From: an uncultured Bacteroidales bacterium
GTDB taxonomy: Bacteria; Bacteroidota; Bacteroidia; Bacteroidales; F082
Reading direction: 5' to 3'
Length of the DNA stretch: 64,000 bases
Assembly (NCBI GenBank): GCA_905234275.1
Contig: CAJOHD010000003.1
Location: 138,362 to 202,361 of the forward strand
The notes beneath the pieces were generated by a model that worked only from the letters and a program-made list of their open reading frames with translations, was not told the origin of the DNA and did not search any database. Below are positions 37,079 to 53,610 of this stretch, piece after piece. Position 1 is the stretch's first letter. The number at the start of each line of letters is the position of its first letter. A program made the translations under genes and the position numbers.

Positions 37079-37180
37079 CGTCATTTCGAGCGAAGTCGAG
37101 AAATCTACACCTAACAATTGATACATATCTTTCATATATCGAAGATTTCTCCATTCCGCTTCGCTTCAGTCGAAATGACG
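37079..37180. repeat. REP-like inverted pair (102 bp)
   Basis: The left unit at 37079-37106 reads CGTCATTTCGAGCGAAGTCG then AGAAATCT. The right unit at 37143-37180 is the reverse: AGATTTCT ... CGAAATGACG. The intervening 36 bases have no gene. The right unit ends one base before the TAG stop of the dehydrogenase gene at 37182, so the repeat abuts the coding end. Confidence 0.92.
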
Positions 37181-38483: not shown

Positions 38484-38489
38484 TGTAAT

Positions 38490-38520
38490 GGTTATTGTTT
38501 ATTGGTTATTGGTTATTGAT
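38490..38520. repeat. Tandem 7-mer array (GGTTATT), left of second four-helix-bundle gene
   Basis: The array reads GGTTATT, GTTTATT, GGTTATT, GGTTATT and a broken unit. It lies between the ugd start (38483) and the four-helix-bundle stop, and supplies the TAA stop of that gene at 38513-38515. Confidence 0.88.
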
Positions 38521-38887
38521 TTGTTTTTTCAAGTGATTTGCGGAGACCAGATAACATTTTGGCAATGTCTGTAAATTTTGGTCTCAAAGTGTTAAACTGT
38601 TCGTCAGTCATATATCCTAAATCACAAGCAGTTTGCAATTCACAGAAAACTTCCATCAATGAACCGTATGATATTTCAATAAAATGTATTTTTTCTTTTG
38701 TTGACTGTCGACCACTACCTTCTGCCAAATTAGCAGTTATTGATACTGCTGCACGACGCACTTGATCACCTAAACCGTAAATCTCCTCCTTAGGAAAATT
38801 CCTCTGTATACGATAAACATCAGAAACTAAAGAACGAGCCTTCCCGTAAACCTCAAGATTTTCAAACGAAAACTTCCTAACCACCAT
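38513..38887 (-). CDS. Four-helix-bundle protein (23S rRNA intervening-sequence / S23 family), copy 2
   Basis: The 124-aa protein starts at the ATG at 38887 (MVVRKFSFENLEVYGKARSL); a TTG upstream is not used. Family features are QVRRAAVSITANLAEGSGRQS and HFIEISYGSLMEVFCEL. It is distant from copy 1 at 28656, so the two are not a recent duplication, yet both are set in heptamer arrays that reach into the coding ends. It lies between upxY and ugd, interrupting the usual series at the start of the capsule operon. Confidence 0.9.
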   Translation of the reverse strand: MVVRKFSFENLEVYGKARSLVSDVYRIQRNFPKEEIYGLGDQVRRAAVSITANLAEGSGRQSTKEKIHFIEISYGSLMEVFCELQTACDLGYMTDEQFNTLRPKFTDIAKMLSGLRKSLEKTNQ

Positions 38888-38897
38888 AATCCACTTC

Positions 38898-38925
38898 AAT
38901 AACCAATAACCTATAACCTATAAAC
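38898..38925. repeat. Tandem 7-mer array (AATAACC / TATAACC), right of second four-helix-bundle gene
   Basis: Four 7-mers read AATAACC, AATAACC, TATAACC, TATAAAC. They are the inverse of the GGTTATT array on the other side of the gene, so the cassette is bounded by inverted repeats. The array also forms the last codons (VYRL) and TAG stop of upxY at 38911-38913. Confidence 0.88.
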
Positions 38926-39498
38926 TTTAATCTTCTTTTCTTTTATCGGCTCTAGCTTTTCAACGTCTGCTGCATTTAATGCGACGGTTGCAACTGCGGC
39001 GATGCCTTCGATCTTGATTACCACGCGTTTCTCGTGGCGGTTTGGCATTCTCACGTAAATACCTTCAACTCCTTCGAACGGACCTGTCAGGATCCTTACC
39101 CTGTCGCCTTGGCGGAGGTCGATGTTCGGGTCGACCGGCTTGGAGCCCATGGTGCGGACCACCTTCATGAAATCCGCCATCTGCTTGTCGGGCACATATT
39201 GTGGCACGTTGGCGACGCCGCAGTCGTCCTTGCCCATCACGAAGCGCAGATAATCGATTTTATATTGTTTTATGGCAAGCAGGTTGTTGTAACTGTCGCG
39301 TATGAAGATGTAGTTGTGAATGAGCGGCTCGGTCTTCCAACCGATGGCGAGACCTTTCTCGTTGCGGATTTTCGCCCTCACCGTAGGGATATAATGCTCA
39401 ATGCCCAGCTCTTCCAGCTGTTTCGCAGCCGTCAGTTCGCGCTGATAAGTTACGCGAAACACATACCAAGCAACAACATTTTTCTCTACTTTATTCAT
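38911..39498 (-). CDS. upxY: UpxY-family transcription antiterminator (NusG-like)
   Basis: The 195-aa product has the NusG N-terminal domain with AWYVFRVTYQRELTAAKQLEELGIEHYIPTVRA and the C-terminal KOW motif in LRQGDRVRILTGPFEGVEGIY. UpxY proteins bind RNA polymerase on their own capsule operon and prevent early termination, giving specific expression of that operon. The gene is the first of the leftward locus. Its last codons are encoded by a heptamer array. A usual partner UpxZ, which represses other operons' UpxY, is not seen here. The 5-prime leader of about 150 nt contains an inverted repeat (39596-39644). Confidence 0.93.
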   Translation of the reverse strand: MNKVEKNVVAWYVFRVTYQRELTAAKQLEELGIEHYIPTVRAKIRNEKGLAIGWKTEPLIHNYIFIRDSYNNLLAIKQYKIDYLRFVMGKDDCGVANVPQYVPDKQMADFMKVVRTMGSKPVDPNIDLRQGDRVRILTGPFEGVEGIYVRMPNRHEKRVVIKIEGIAAVATVALNAADVEKLEPIKEKKIKVYRL

Positions 39499-39854: not shown

Positions 39855-41866
39855 AATTTAGTTTTTTTCTTATCTTGTTGATATTCACTGACTTGCCAAG
39901 CTGATTCGGCATATTTTTGCATCTCATTTGCCAGTTCAGGATAGTCAGAAATGTAGTTTTTCTTCTCTTTTTCCTGATATTTATACAACCCGATCTGCTC
40001 CTCGGCTGGTTTGTTGATCAAAAGCCACTCGTGATTGAGCACTCCATATTTGTCGTCACCCATGAAATATGCATACTTCCTAACCTCTCTCTGCAAATCG
40101 ATTCCGAAAGTATTATTGACATAATTCTTGCCTAAAATTCCCATCACCGTAGGGAAGATGTCCATCTGGCTGGCGATGGCTTCGTTGGCTTGCGGCTGCA
40201 GATGCTTTGGCATGTAAAAAATGAGAGGCGAGTGGAAATAGCTCAGCGGGATGGAATAGTCGGTGTCGAGAGCGGCGCCGTGATCGGCAACGAAGACGAA
40301 TAAAGTGTTGTCGAACCAAGGCTTTTCTTGCGCCATCTCGATGAAACGCTGGAGCGACCAGTCGGCATATTCCGTGATTTGGTACTTCTGCTCGGTGTTT
40401 TTCGGCTCAAAATAGTCGGGGATGTAGTACGGACCGTGGTCGGAGGCGGTCATCATAGCTGCGAAGAATGGCTTGTTGTTGCTAGCCATCTCGTCGAAAA
40501 TAGGCATGGCAAAACGGAACATATAGTCATCAGGCACACCGAGCGTCGTCTTGACCTCGCCGACAGGATAATCGGCCTGCGAGATGATACGCTCAACGCC
40601 ATTTTGGCTCAAAAAACCTGCCACATTGTCGAACTCCTTGTCGTGAGTGGTGAAATAAGCCGTCTGGTAGCCGTTTTGTTGCAAAGTGGCGGCCATGCAG
40701 TCGTATTGCAGCATAGGAATACGCTTGAGGGCATGGTTGCGGAATATCACCGGATAAGACGTGAAGGTGGTGTAGATGCCGCAATAGGTGTGAGTGCCGC
40801 TGGTGTAACAATTATTGAAACTCAGCGACTTATCCATCAAAGCATCGAGGAAAGGTGTAAGGTTGTGGGTGTTGCCACCATGAGCGGTTTTGTTGTAGCT
40901 CATGCCCTCCATGATGATGACGATGACGTTGTAAGATACACGGTCGGTTGCAGGAGATTTCTCCGCTACGCCTAACGGCTCCGGTCGAAATGACGACACT
41001 GTCCCCTCGTCATTTCGAGCGAAACGAAGTGGAGTCGAGAAATCTCTGACTCGAGCGATAGGATAATCTTTGTCAGGATTTTCAATCCCGAGATTCTGCT
41101 GCACTAAAGCGATCGCCGCCTCATCTGACATAAATCTAACTTTCTGATTATCAGGGTCTTTGCTGTCGAGCCAGCTTCTTACCAATGTGAAATTCGGGTT
41201 CAATCCGAGCTGGTTAAGCATGGCGTTATTGCAGAAATATGCGGTACCGACCATGATAGGAGATTTCTCGTTGAGTCTTCCCCTCATTCCTATAAAAACA
41301 AGTCCCCAGAGCAGCACTGTGTAAATGCCATATTGAGCATAATACACTGATTCCCAACCAGTTGAGCGCTTCATAATTCTATTTGCGAAGAACCAGAAAA
41401 TGCATCCTGAGGCGAGCACCGGCAGCATCATGAGGATGTAAGTGGGCTCCTCGAAAATCATCTTGAAGACGAAGGCGCTGTCGCCCGTTGCCATCCACTC
41501 GAAAGCGGTAATATTGAACCTATCGAAGAATTGGTCGAAGTAAGGGATATCAGCGGCACAGATGCCGAAAGTTATTGTAAAACAAACAGTTAGAACCCAA
41601 GTGTAAATCAGTTCAAATATGCGGCTTTTCTTGCCAAAGAATGAAAAAATTGTCAGTATTATCGTTGGAATCGCAATCACAAATCCAATAGTCACAATAT
41701 CGAAGCGAACACCCATGATGAAGGCTTGGATCACCTCCCAAGTGGTAGTTGAGCCTACGCGATCCAAATTCAGCAAAAGCAGTGCCACTCTGAAAGCAGT
41801 ATATATTGCTATTAGAAGCAGATATAGTTTGAGTGTTATTTTGACAAATACTGGAATACGTTTCAT
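39839..41866 (-). CDS. LTA synthase-like membrane sulfatase-fold protein with an in-frame repeat insertion
   Basis: The protein is 675 aa from the ATG at 41866 (MKRIPVFVKITLKLYLLLI); an ATG four codons earlier lies inside a REP-like unit and is probably accidental. Five membrane segments occupy residues about 10-205. A periplasmic alkaline-phosphatase/sulfatase-type domain follows (NVIVIIMEGMSYNKTA with the nucleophile threonine near 321, and FVADHGAALDT). Such enzymes transfer phosphoglycerol or phosphoethanolamine. Residues about 274-305 (RVRDFSTPLRFARNDE then FRPEPLGVAEKSPATD) are the translation of two REP-like units at 40954-41047, placed in the linker before the catalytic domain. Confidence 0.9.
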   Translation of the reverse strand: MKRIPVFVKITLKLYLLLIAIYTAFRVALLLLNLDRVGSTTTWEVIQAFIMGVRFDIVTIGFVIAIPTIILTIFSFFGKKSRIFELIYTWVLTVCFTITFGICAADIPYFDQFFDRFNITAFEWMATGDSAFVFKMIFEEPTYILMMLPVLASGCIFWFFANRIMKRSTGWESVYYAQYGIYTVLLWGLVFIGMRGRLNEKSPIMVGTAYFCNNAMLNQLGLNPNFTLVRSWLDSKDPDNQKVRFMSDEAAIALVQQNLGIENPDKDYPIARVRDFSTPLRFARNDEGTVSSFRPEPLGVAEKSPATDRVSYNVIVIIMEGMSYNKTAHGGNTHNLTPFLDALMDKSLSFNNCYTSGTHTYCGIYTTFTSYPVIFRNHALKRIPMLQYDCMAATLQQNGYQTAYFTTHDKEFDNVAGFLSQNGVERIISQADYPVGEVKTTLGVPDDYMFRFAMPIFDEMASNNKPFFAAMMTASDHGPYYIPDYFEPKNTEQKYQITEYADWSLQRFIEMAQEKPWFDNTLFVFVADHGAALDTDYSIPLSYFHSPLIFYMPKHLQPQANEAIASQMDIFPTVMGILGKNYVNNTFGIDLQREVRKYAYFMGDDKYGVLNHEWLLINKPAEEQIGLYKYQEKEKKNYISDYPELANEMQKYAESAWQVSEYQQDKKKTKFLSHE
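40954..41047. repeat. REP-like pair inside a coding sequence, opposite arrangement (94 bp)
   Basis: The reverse unit comes first (GAGATTTCT...CGAAATGACGA, 40954-40996) and the forward unit second (TCGTCATTTCGAGC...GAGAAATCTC, 41007-41047), so the outer ends here are GAGATTTC/GAAATCTC rather than the GTCATTTCG ends of the intergenic pairs. The 94 bases keep the frame of the sulfatase-like gene open. Confidence 0.92.
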
Positions 41867-41872
41867 TTTATC

Positions 41873-42305
41873 CGTCATTTCGACCGACCGCAGGGAGCGG
41901 AGAAATCTCCACCTTTCAAGTCAAATCATCTATATTTAATATTTCATTATCATTAACTAATTCAATCCAATTAGGATTTTTAGAATTTATCAGATTTTTC
42001 TTTTTTAATCTATTCCATTTTTTTAATTGGGTCTCTCTATCAATTGCTTGGTTTATGTCATTATATTTTTCATAATAAACACAAATTTCACAATTATAAT
42101 TATCTGAAAAAGAACCCTTTATTTCATGATTCTTATGTTCGTAAACTCTTCTGATCAAATCATTTGTTACACCTATATATAAAGTTGTTTTGTTTTTATT
42201 AGTCATTATATAGATGTAACTTTCTTTCATTTCTATTATTTATTTTCGTTATTTATATTGTCGGAGATTTCTCCATTCCGCCTATCGGCTCCAGTCGAAA
42301 TGACG
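41873..42305. mobile_element. 433-bp REP-bounded element carrying a GIY-YIG nuclease gene (copy 1)
   Basis: The element is bounded by REP-like units in inverted arrangement, 41873-41908 (CGTCATTTCGACCGACCG... ending GAGAAATCT) and 42265-42305 (AGATTTCT... ending CGAAATGACG), with a leftward GIY-YIG gene between. Its length matches the 432-bp element at 48204-48635. The right unit ends one base before the TAG stop of trkA. No target duplication is evident. Confidence 0.8.
41916..42230 (-). CDS. Small GIY-YIG endonuclease, copy 1
   Basis: The 104-aa single-domain protein has the GIY-YIG core MKESYIYIMTN with LYIGVTNDLIRRVYEHK; the second tyrosine of the YIG, arginine 27, tyrosine 30 and histidine 32 are conserved, and glutamate 66 in RETQLKKW is the metal ligand. 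Small UvrC-like family proteins of this type are widespread in Bacteroidetes without assigned function. It has a close paralogue at 48268, also enclosed in REP-like units. With terminal inverted repeats around each copy the nuclease could drive movement or copying of the repeats; that is inference. Confidence 0.9.
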   Translation of the reverse strand: MKESYIYIMTNKNKTTLYIGVTNDLIRRVYEHKNHEIKGSFSDNYNCEICVYYEKYNDINQAIDRETQLKKWNRLKKKNLINSKNPNWIELVNDNEILNIDDLT

Positions 42306-43663: not shown

Positions 43664-43771
43664 CGTCATTTCGAGCGACCGCAGGGAGTCGAGAAATCTC
43701 CGACAATTTTGCAGTTTCTCTGTTTGCAGGAGATTTCTCCACTACGCCTTAAGGCTCCGGTCGAAATGACG
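43664..43771. repeat. REP-like inverted pair (108 bp)
   Basis: The left unit at 43664-43699 (CGTCATTTCGAGCGACCGCA... ending AGAAATCT) and the right unit at 43731-43771 (AGATTTCT... ending CGAAATGACG) enclose 31 bases without a gene. The pair lies between trkA and the omega-amidase. Confidence 0.92.
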
Positions 43772-45414: not shown

Positions 45415-45455
45415 CGTCATTTCGACCGGAGCCGATAGGCGGAGTGGAGAAATCT
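45415..45455. repeat. Single REP-like unit
   Basis: CGTCATTTCGACCGGAGCCG... ending GAGAAATCT, forward orientation. No partner is found within the next 100 bases, so it is a solitary unit. It lies between the barrel gene and the exosortase-family gene. Confidence 0.9.
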
Positions 45456-45478
45456 TCGACAAGCTCGGACATACAATT

Positions 45479-46087
45479 ATGACAATAAATAAAGAAAAAA
45501 TAAGGGAACTTTATGCTGACAAGCGGTACCAGACGTATTTTGATGTCGGGCTGTTTTTCGTGCTGATTTTCAGTTTCCATTTGCTTTATTTGCTTTGGGA
45601 GGGGGCGATGGACTTTTGGCCGATAAAGGGCACCATCGACAAGCTTTTTGTGTGGGCTTCGAAGCTGCTTTTCAACCAGAGCACATGGGTGCTGGAGCAC
45701 ATCTTCGGCATGGATTTCTTCACCAAAGGGCAGACCATAATGTTTGAAAACTATCACGACTCATATTCCGCGGTGACGGTAGCGCCAGAATGCACCAGCT
45801 TGAAACAATGGATGCACTGGCTCTTCCTCATGCTCATTTTCCCCGGTCCGTGGAAGCACAAAGCATGGTATATCCCGCTCGGCCTGGTCATAGTGGAGTT
45901 CACCAATGTGGTGAGAATAGTCGGAATCGCCTTGTTTTTAAGACCATTCCCAGATTCATTCGCCTTAGCGCATGATGTTATCTTTAAGATAATGTTTTAT
46001 GTAGTTATCTTCCTGATGTGGGCTATTTGGAATGATAATTTTCACCATAAAAAGGCCGTCATTTCGAGCGAACATCGAACAAAGTGA
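45479..46087 (+). CDS. Exosortase/archaeosortase-family membrane protein
   Basis: The 202-aa protein has about five to six membrane segments and the exosortase catalytic layout: cysteine 105 in VAPECTSLKQ, arginine 146 in FTNVVRIVGIA and histidine 165 in FALAHDVIFK. Exosortases process the C-terminal sorting signals of exported proteins at the cell surface, usually for exopolysaccharide- or biofilm-linked targets. No target protein with a PEP-CTERM-like tail was seen here. The last eight or so residues (VISSEHRTK) come from the REP-like unit at 46057, so the normal C-terminus may have been replaced. Confidence 0.85.
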   Translation: MTINKEKIRELYADKRYQTYFDVGLFFVLIFSFHLLYLLWEGAMDFWPIKGTIDKLFVWASKLLFNQSTWVLEHIFGMDFFTKGQTIMFENYHDSYSAVTVAPECTSLKQWMHWLFLMLIFPGPWKHKAWYIPLGLVIVEFTNVVRIVGIALFLRPFPDSFALAHDVIFKIMFYVVIFLMWAIWNDNFHHKKAVISSEHRTK

Positions 46088-46203
46088 GATGGTAGTCGAG
46101 AAATCCTCTTTTCGTATAAACATTATAAGAAAAACGGCTTTTAAAAAGATTTTTCGGATGGAGGATTTCTCCGCTACGCCTAACGGCTCCGGTCGAAATG
46201 ACG
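46057..46203. repeat. REP-like inverted pair overlapping the exosortase end (147 bp)
   Basis: Forward unit 46057-46106 (CGTCATTTCGAGCGAACA... ending AGAAATCC) and reverse unit 46163-46203 (GGATTTCT... ending CGAAATGACG). The forward unit contains the last codons and stop of the exosortase-family gene; the reverse unit ends four bases before the TAA of the CLC channel gene. Confidence 0.92.
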
Positions 46204-48053: not shown

Positions 48054-48193
48054 CGTCATTTCGACCGGAGCGGAATGAAATGGAGCGAAGTGGAGAAATC
48101 CTCATTTAACGGGAACAATATGAAAAAGGTTATAAAACAATAATAAGGCATAACAAGGATTTCTCGACTCCACTACGTTTCGCTCGAAATGAC
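48054..48193. mobile_element. 140-bp gene-less relative of the GIY-YIG element
   Basis: Inverted REP-like units (left to about 48103, right 48157-48193) enclose about 50 bases. Its inner left part reads GAGAAATCCTC then ATTTAACGGGAACAAT, then ATGAAAAAGGTTAT, which matches the start of the neighbouring element's inner part (GAGAAATCCTC, GATTAACGGGAACAAT, GAAAGAAAGTTAT). It therefore looks like a deleted, non-autonomous version placed in tandem with the full one, 10 bases before it. Confidence 0.8.
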
Positions 48194-48203
48194 AAGGAGC
48201 GTT

Positions 48204-48635
48204 CGTCATTTCGACCGAAGCGAAATGAAATGGAGCGAAGTGGAGAAATCCTCGATTAACGGGAACAATGAAAGAAAGTTATATATACATAGTAACTAAT
48301 TTTGACAGAACAGTATTATATATCGGAGTTACAAATGATCTGATAAGAAGAGTCTATGAACACAAAAATCATTTGTTTGAGAATTCATTTACTGATAAGT
48401 ATAATTGTGGAACATGTATATATTATGAAAAGTATAATGATATTAATCAGGCCATTGAAAGAGAGACACAATTAAAGAAATGGAGTAGAAAGAAAAAAGA
48501 AAACCTGATTACTTCTAAGAATCCAGGTTGGGTTAGTTTAGTAAATGATAATGAAATAATTAATATAGATAATACATTGGAAGAAAGCGGGTATAGAGGA
48601 TTTCTCGATTCCGCTCCGCTTCACTCGAAATGACG
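48204..48635. mobile_element. 432-bp REP-bounded element carrying a GIY-YIG nuclease gene (copy 2)
   Basis: Forward unit 48204-48253 and reverse unit 48598-48635 enclose a rightward GIY-YIG gene. Ends are CGTCATTTCGACC and CGAAATGACG. The length is within one base of the element at 41873-42305, in the opposite orientation. The C-terminus of the nuclease and the first codons of the next frame are drawn from the right unit. Confidence 0.8.
48268..48633 (+). CDS. Small GIY-YIG endonuclease, copy 2
   Basis: The 121-aa protein is close to copy 1: MKESYIYIVTNFDRT, LYIGVTNDLIRRVYEHKN, YYEKYNDINQAIERETQLKKW. The catalytic tyrosines, arginine and glutamate are kept. It is about 17 residues longer because its end (YRGFLDSAPLHSK) is read from the right REP-like unit. 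The start ATG follows the AACGGGAACA leader shared with the shortened element at 48054. Its stop TGA overlaps the beginning of the exonuclease frame. Confidence 0.9.
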   Translation: MKESYIYIVTNFDRTVLYIGVTNDLIRRVYEHKNHLFENSFTDKYNCGTCIYYEKYNDINQAIERETQLKKWSRKKKENLITSKNPGWVSLVNDNEIINIDNTLEESGYRGFLDSAPLHSK

Positions 48636-50485: not shown

Positions 50486-50556
50486 TTCTCGCAGATTTCG
50501 CAGATGACGCTGATATTCTATTGCTAAAATCTGCGTAATCTGCGTAATCTGCGAGA
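50486..50556. repeat. TCTGCG-type repeats between convergent genes
   Basis: TCTCGCAGATTTCGCAGATGA on the left and AATCTGCGTAATCTGCG, repeated and ending TGCGAGA, on the right can pair as a hairpin. They lie between mnmA and a leftward membrane protein gene and may double as a bidirectional terminator. The same core appears at 54587-54762. Confidence 0.75.
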
Positions 50557-53524: not shown

Positions 53525-53610
53525 CGTCATTTCGAGCGACCGCAGGGAGTCGAGAAATCTCCGACATGCATGAGATTTCTCCATTCCGCTTCGCTACAGT
53601 CGAAATGACG
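53525..53610. repeat. REP-like inverted pair overlapping the PfkB gene end (86 bp)
   Basis: Forward unit 53525-53560 (CGTCATTTCGAGCGACCGCA... ending AGAAATCT) and reverse unit 53573-53610 (AGATTTCT... ending CGAAATGACG). The reverse unit contains the TAG and last codons of the PfkB-family gene (residues KTSFRL). Confidence 0.92.

Follow-up and report, generated by a model that had tools for sequence, protein, structure and literature searches.

Two small nuclease genes between inverted tagged repeats

The 64,000-nt stretch of DNA analysed here (the window) carries two gene-bearing units in opposite orientation, each with a single small GIY-YIG gene enclosed by inverted GTCATTTCGA arms (Table 1). 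Both units start with CGTCATTTCGA and end with TCGAAATGACG, and they are 78% identical over 307 bp in inverse orientation. The stop codon of gene 2, TGA (48631–48633), falls inside the right repeat tag, and the last residues of the protein are encoded by the right arm. The 2.58-Mb draft genome (27 contigs) contains only one other GIY-YIG match, a long UvrC-type frame. The coordinates and the Pfam PF01541 matches confirm the original prediction of two 432–433 bp blocks, oppositely oriented, with a GIY-YIG gene inside each. The same units had been said to occur without the gene elsewhere in the window, where five gene-less pairs were indeed located.

Table 1. Position of the units, genes, arms and gene-less copies in the window
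Feature	Position	Strand	Description or basis
Two arms, tags face-to-face	40948–41046		Absent in G067, G054, G041 and others
Gene-bearing unit 1	41873–42305	−	433 bp; tags CGTC (41873)...GACG (42305)
Unit 1 outer arm, 3' side of gene 1	41873–41913	+	Sequence CGTCATTTCGACCGACCGCAGGGAGCGGAGAAATCTCC
GIY-YIG nuclease gene 1, T clade	41916–42230	−	104 aa; PF01541, E 1.9e-15
Unit 1 outer arm, 5' side of gene 1	42262–42305	−	Sequence comparison of units
Gene-bearing unit 2	48204–48635	+	432 bp; tags CGTC (48204)...GACG (48635)
Unit 2 left arm	48204–48253	+	Sequence comparison of units
GIY-YIG nuclease gene 2	48268–48633	+	121 aa; Pfam PF01541, E 1.3e-14
Unit 2 right arm	48593–48635	−	Sequence comparison of units
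Gene-less unit directly upstream of unit 2	48054–48194	+	Leader and start-codon region in common with unit 2; internal-deletion derivative
Gene-less inverted pair	37079–37180		Repeat search, site comparison, pair folding
Gene-less inverted pair	43664–43771		Empty in G041, G061; hybrid GTCATTCCGA/GTCATTTCGA pair in G058, G069
Gene-less inverted pair	46057–46203		Empty in G041, G058, G069, G014
Gene-less inverted pair	53525–53610		Empty in G014, G047; same right arm and different left arm in G067
Single arm	45415–45462	+	Repeat search, site comparison

Another small gene with mirror-image ends lies at 38486–38929 of the window, where a 128-aa four-helix-bundle gene, by appearance of the rRNA intervening-sequence type, stands between inverted AT-rich repeats (TAATGGTTATTGTTTATTGG...). 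Other palindromic families share these intergenic hot spots, in the window (50487–50556) and at orthologous sites in relatives (G067, G054, G016, G041); these families are CTCGCAGATTTCGCAGAT..., AT-rich AATTGACAATTG pairs and ATTAAACGTCAAACGACATAAATC.

The nuclease is modelled with confidence as a small GIY-YIG fold (pLDDT 95.9), and the motif residues Y7, Y18, G20, R28, H32 and E66 are invariant. With a single GIY-YIG domain and conserved motif residues, the protein is of the UPF0213/YhbQ type, and its top match among solved structures is 1zg2. Its relatives by fold and sequence are UPF0213 proteins (1zg2, 1ywl) and SLX1, a branched-DNA nuclease. GIY-YIG enzymes are hydrolytic nucleases, for which strand joining is not expected, and they form a classical homing-nuclease family.

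Properties of the repeat

Among bacterial repeats, few are as common as short tagged palindromes. The whole 2.58-Mb genome holds 189 copies of CGTCATTTCGA, compared with 1 for the reversed control, and the window has 17 copies of GTCATTTCG where 0.63 are expected, a number that none of 100 shuffles attained. Among 72 repeat pairs collected from this and related genomes, the gene-less ones measure 49–145 bp and the gene-bearing ones 386–436 bp, with none of intermediate size. The 144 ends of these pairs are sharp, with GTCA invariably preceded by C (76%) or T (24%). No excess of direct repeats that would mark a target-site duplication was found at the unit ends (offset 0) of the 72 pairs, for which several offsets were tried; the few small excesses at offsets 1–3 are not consistent, and the AATTAAA that seems to be duplicated at a single site in G058 is not a general feature. 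The signature of classical transposition is therefore missing from these units.

A single arm of the window type is weakly self-palindromic at best (DNA fold z −2.3 to +1.7), whereas the two arms of one pair fold onto each other strongly (z −3.9 to −6.5). A single-arm hairpin is a weak candidate for the defining structure of the window repeat, and the term 'inverted tagged unit' thus fits better than 'REP hairpin'. To this extent the original description of the units as REP-like is corrected.

Clear internal deletions of the adjacent gene unit are represented by gene-less units in G005 (L078) and by the tandem units at the site of unit 2; in relatives G067 and G054, the unit type found at 48054–48194 is repeated three times in tandem. 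The idea that every gene-less pair is a deletion derivative of a gene unit was rejected, since only a minority are and most interiors are unrelated to the gene unit, several of the matches in this interior comparison reflecting arms longer than the part that was trimmed.

Gene and repeat are linked across phyla

Homologues of the nuclease in related genomes lie almost all between inverted repeats, the sequence of which differs among genomes. For a wider comparison, 80 named loci were chosen from a genome collection by protein sequence alone, in which the closest named match to the nuclease family is an uncultured Prevotellaceae contig. The 80 loci span Bacteroidota, Alpha-, Beta- and Gammaproteobacteria, Planctomycetes, Elusimicrobia, Parcubacteria and others; several of the 80 are closely related to each other, so that they do not all count as independent. 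Of these loci, 78 were scored.

The inverted-repeat score between the 250-bp flanks exceeds 95% of the null, for which 3120 positions were drawn at random within these loci, at 57 of the 78 loci, and 99% of it at 48, where 0.8 would be expected. In a relaxed test for tagged hairpins (GTCA with a stem of at least 5 bp, the tag pointing away from the gene), outward hairpins were found on both sides of the gene at 42 of 78 loci (54%), compared with 0.17% of 2340 positions picked at random there; the stricter 7-bp test gives 26% versus 0.04%. Per side, the tag is directed outward at 71% and 68% and inward at 33% of the 78 loci, and strict 7-bp AT-starting hairpins are found in 41% of the upstream and 37% of the downstream cross-phylum flanks. 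Repeats are common in the genome of the window, and small genes in repeat-rich intergenic space could be expected to meet them by chance, but the random-position control refutes this explanation, the tag orientation is biased and the repeat types follow the protein clades. Chance can practically be dismissed.

Each host group has a repeat of its own. The flanks are CGTCATTCCCGCG..CGGGAATC in Neisseria gonorrhoeae, Methylomonas and Methylophilaceae, GTCATTGCGAGGAGCG..GCAATCT in Chryseobacterium and CGTCATCCTCGGGCTTGACCCGAGGATCCA in rhizobia, and the GIY-YIG gene of Novosphingobium aromaticivorans DSM 12444 lies between CGTCGCCCCGTGCTTGACACGGGGC units; ATCCA tails are present at several other loci (e.g., L096, L110). 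Approximately 30–45% of the cross-phylum homologues have no clear ends on both sides. The homologue on Rhizobium tumorigenes plasmids, which has no clear ends (L181), is an exception, and a fragment match in G016 was discarded as a different protein with no repeat ends (L074). Gene and repeat are strongly linked, and not only in Bacteroidota. As had been anticipated, the majority of homologues have inverted tagged repeats on their flanks, and the restriction of the system to Bacteroidetes, which had been part of the same proposal, is contradicted by the pairing in Alpha-, Beta- and Gammaproteobacteria, Planctomycetes, Elusimicrobia and others.

In contigs of Brocadiaceae, Dehalococcoidia and Deltaproteobacteria (L107, L117, L137 and others), the flanking repeats of the gene are GTCATTGCGAGC..GCAATC, and the pairing thus extends to repeats that are common in environmental genomes.

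Nuclease clades match repeat types in the host genus

In the host genus, from which 62 proteins were compared, seven repeat types correspond one to one to seven single protein clades, with the types called by fixed flank patterns that were written after the flanks had been viewed, and with type G merging several related sequences. On the protein tree, a quick one built from 105 columns with four rows unlabelled, the repeat type changes six times, which is the minimum; the shuffled mean is 38.3, and none of 200 shuffles was as low. Genome G018 contains clades I, V and P together, each gene beside its own repeat type, and host identity is therefore not the cause of the pairing.

Some units have further repeats. 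The C-clade units of G014, G061 and G047 (L006, L048, L049) have an extra GCGCGGC...GCCGCGC palindrome pair beside the tagged ends, and I-clade units have extra GCGGCGGC...GCCGCCGC pairs. In G035, a draft genome of the same order, two tandem GIY-YIG genes are each preceded by a CTGAATACCTGCCTGCCGGCAGGCAGGGTGCATCTGACAAGG repeat (L029, 1489–2080).

Copy number was compared across 60 genomes of the genus, with 20 or more copies taken as abundant and GTCATTTCGA as the T repeat. Without correction for shared ancestry, the T repeat is abundant in all seven genomes with a T-clade gene versus 9 of 53 without (Fisher 3e-5), and the P repeat in all seven with a P-clade gene versus 16 of 53 without (Fisher 6e-4). 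Repeat-rich genomes that have the gene also hold more copies than those that do not (p 0.004 for T and 0.0025 for P, again uncorrected for shared ancestry). The specificity is reciprocal: genomes with the T gene have 0–3 P repeats, and T matches number 3–16 in genomes with the P gene versus 50–265 in those with the T gene. No T-clade or P-clade gene without its cognate repeat was found in the 60 genomes. Nine genomes rich in the T repeat are without a T-clade gene, several of them being incomplete drafts; hence, either the repeats persist longer than the gene or the drafts fail to include it. The expected excess of cognate repeats in gene-bearing genomes was thus observed, together with persistence of repeats where the gene is lacking. 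Neither of the outcomes named beforehand as refuting, a majority of homologues without repeat ends or equal repeat abundance in genomes lacking the gene, was seen.

It is very improbable that a tyrosine transposase (RAYT/IS200) or another transposase moves the repeats in trans, with the nuclease as a passenger. One or two Y1_Tnp genes are present in 4 of 12 repeat-rich genomes, but none of the five such genes lies within 1.5 kb of this repeat, and 8 of the 12, including G054 (99% complete, 235 repeats), have no Y1/RAYT-type gene. A RAYT-type transposase was rejected as the mover of this repeat on both counts, and a transposase acting in trans would leave the clade-by-clade pairing unexplained.

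Orthologous sites are empty, gene-less or gene-bearing

At the site of unit 1 (site A), G058, G064 and G014 are empty, with 4–5 bp between the conserved edges of the neighbour genes. The gene unit is present in G000 and G050, a gene-less pair of the same type in G005 and a pair of another type (GTCATTCCGA) in G047. The site of unit 2 (site B) bears gene units of different subclades in G000, G067, G054 and G050, a decayed gene unit in G056, a gene-less pair in G016, G005, G058 and G014, and no unit in G041, G061, G064 and G047. Most of six further sites compared across relatives are likewise polymorphic. At a plasmid locus of Sphingobium, the gene is found in TomMM7A, TomMM15 and TomTYG46, a gene-less repeat with identical outer edges in TomTYG64 and TomTYG74, and no repeat in TomTYG72 and TomTYG65. 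Empty and filled orthologous loci, the comparison suggested with the original prediction, thus exist both in the host genus and on Sphingobium plasmids.

The 1.7-Mb draft genome G050 contains five T-clade gene units (L060–L064), of which one has an in-frame stop; this accords with recent multiplication.

A role in host maintenance, in which a YhbQ/SLX1-like enzyme resolves cruciforms at the repeats and is kept beside its substrate with no mobility, is improbable. The kinship with SLX1 and UPF0213 proteins would suit such a role, as would the ability of repeat pairs to fold into long hairpins, but the genes are present or absent at polymorphic sites, number up to five in one draft genome, are broken in some cases and differ in clade within one genome. 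Genes that are polymorphic, multiplied, broken and mixed in clade point to the behaviour of a selfish element.

The main rival is a homing nuclease landing only in pre-existing repeats. The repeats would spread by other means, the GIY-YIG endonuclease would cut gene-less pairs and be copied into them, and the pairing would reflect target specificity instead of the making of repeats. Such a parasite is conceivable, although we consider it unlikely. Apart from the homing tradition of the family, it would account for the gene units of different subclades at the same site in different species, for the gene-less repeat of Sphingobium TomTYG64 and TomTYG74 exactly where others carry the gene, and for the persistence of repeats without the gene. 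However, it leaves the mover of the repeats unexplained, no RAYT-type transposase having been found near the repeat, and most relatives show no shared gene-less precursor at site A. The higher repeat copy number in the presence of the gene also speaks against it, though homing likewise predicts genes only where targets are common.

A cut-and-repair model for the spread of the repeats

The nuclease subtype is matched to its own repeat type, and the gene lies between mirror copies of that repeat; the enzyme therefore probably spreads the repeats, a large class for which no mover has been known. In the model that we favour, cognate repeats spread through the action of their nuclease, by cutting and host repair and not by classical transposition. 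The nuclease would recognise its own arms, probably as a hairpin or cruciform formed by the repeat pair during replication, and would cut at or near the GTCA tag. Host repair or recombination might then place a copy of the unit at a new site or within another repeat. Cutting and repair could serve the unit that carries the gene as well as, in trans, gene-less pairs, which would amount to a RAYT/REP-like working with a nuclease in place of the tyrosine transposase. The absence of target-site duplications, the exchange of arms, the tandem arrays and the replacement of units at one site would all fit such a process.

The units are likely to form a family of minimal selfish elements, in which one small GIY-YIG gene lies between inverted tagged repeats with the outer end (C/T)GTCAT, and there is reasonable ground to regard the gene-less repeat pairs of the same type as their non-autonomous majority. 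The original prediction that the nuclease moves or copies the repeats, as an analogue of RAYT, agrees with the pairing, the specificity, the copy number and the polymorphic sites; the mover role itself is one that we infer, and a homing nuclease would give some of the same patterns. Whether this is a mechanism not yet described, in which a clade-matched GIY-YIG nuclease of ~100 aa cuts repeat hairpins and host repair copies the units, bacteria-wide, with the nuclease as the missing enzyme of CGTC-type REPs, appears to us an evenly balanced question.

Comparison with known systems

IS elements (DDE type) with MITEs resemble the present system in combining an autonomous unit with terminal inverted repeats and internally deleted copies, which here are a minority of the gene-less pairs; they differ in that no transposase and no target-site duplication are found here. 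GIY-YIG homing endonucleases have the nuclease domain and the location of the gene inside a mobile unit in common with it. In contrast to them, the protein described here has 104 aa and no separate DNA-binding domain, the gene has no intron, intein or phage gene context, and its ends exist in many dispersed copies. The small GIY-YIG proteins UPF0213/YhbQ/YazA and SLX1 share the single small domain (1zg2, 1ywl), YhbQ and YazA having been grouped with Slx1 (PMC7017083). E. coli yhbQ differs in having no flanking tagged repeats, and hence not every small member of the GIY-YIG family is bound to a repeat.

CGTC-tagged REPs were apparently without a dedicated transposase in a 2013 survey that left their mover open (Di Nocera et al. 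2013, PMC3733652). They agree with the present repeats in the CGTC tag, the AT-starting stems, the head-to-head pairs and the high copy number, and several units found here look like them. Their hosts include Neisseria and Novosphingobium aromaticivorans, and the GIY-YIG genes of N. aromaticivorans and N. gonorrhoeae lie between such units. They differ in having been described without a link to any enzyme gene, and the window arms are weakly palindromic with a CTC/CCT tail instead of CCA. No report linking GIY-YIG to REP, REPIN, dRS3, MITE or CGTC repeats was found in open-access full text. A matched nuclease makes the mover of CGTC-class repeats directly testable with a small protein and a short repeat. 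If the model is correct, a hydrolytic nuclease and not a transposase can maintain repeats in hundreds of copies per genome across phyla, and one genus would offer seven natural enzyme/repeat pairs for studies of specificity.

A functional parallel is the REP/RAYT system (REPtrons, REPINs; PMC2817692, PMC3116915), in which an enzyme gene likewise lies between inverted copies of a short tagged repeat, gene-less pairs are abundant elsewhere and the enzyme clades are specific to repeat types. The two differ in their tag, GTAG in REP/RAYT and (C/T)GTC here, and in their enzyme, which is a Y1 (HUH) tyrosine transposase in the former and a PF01541 GIY-YIG nuclease between the repeats in the latter.
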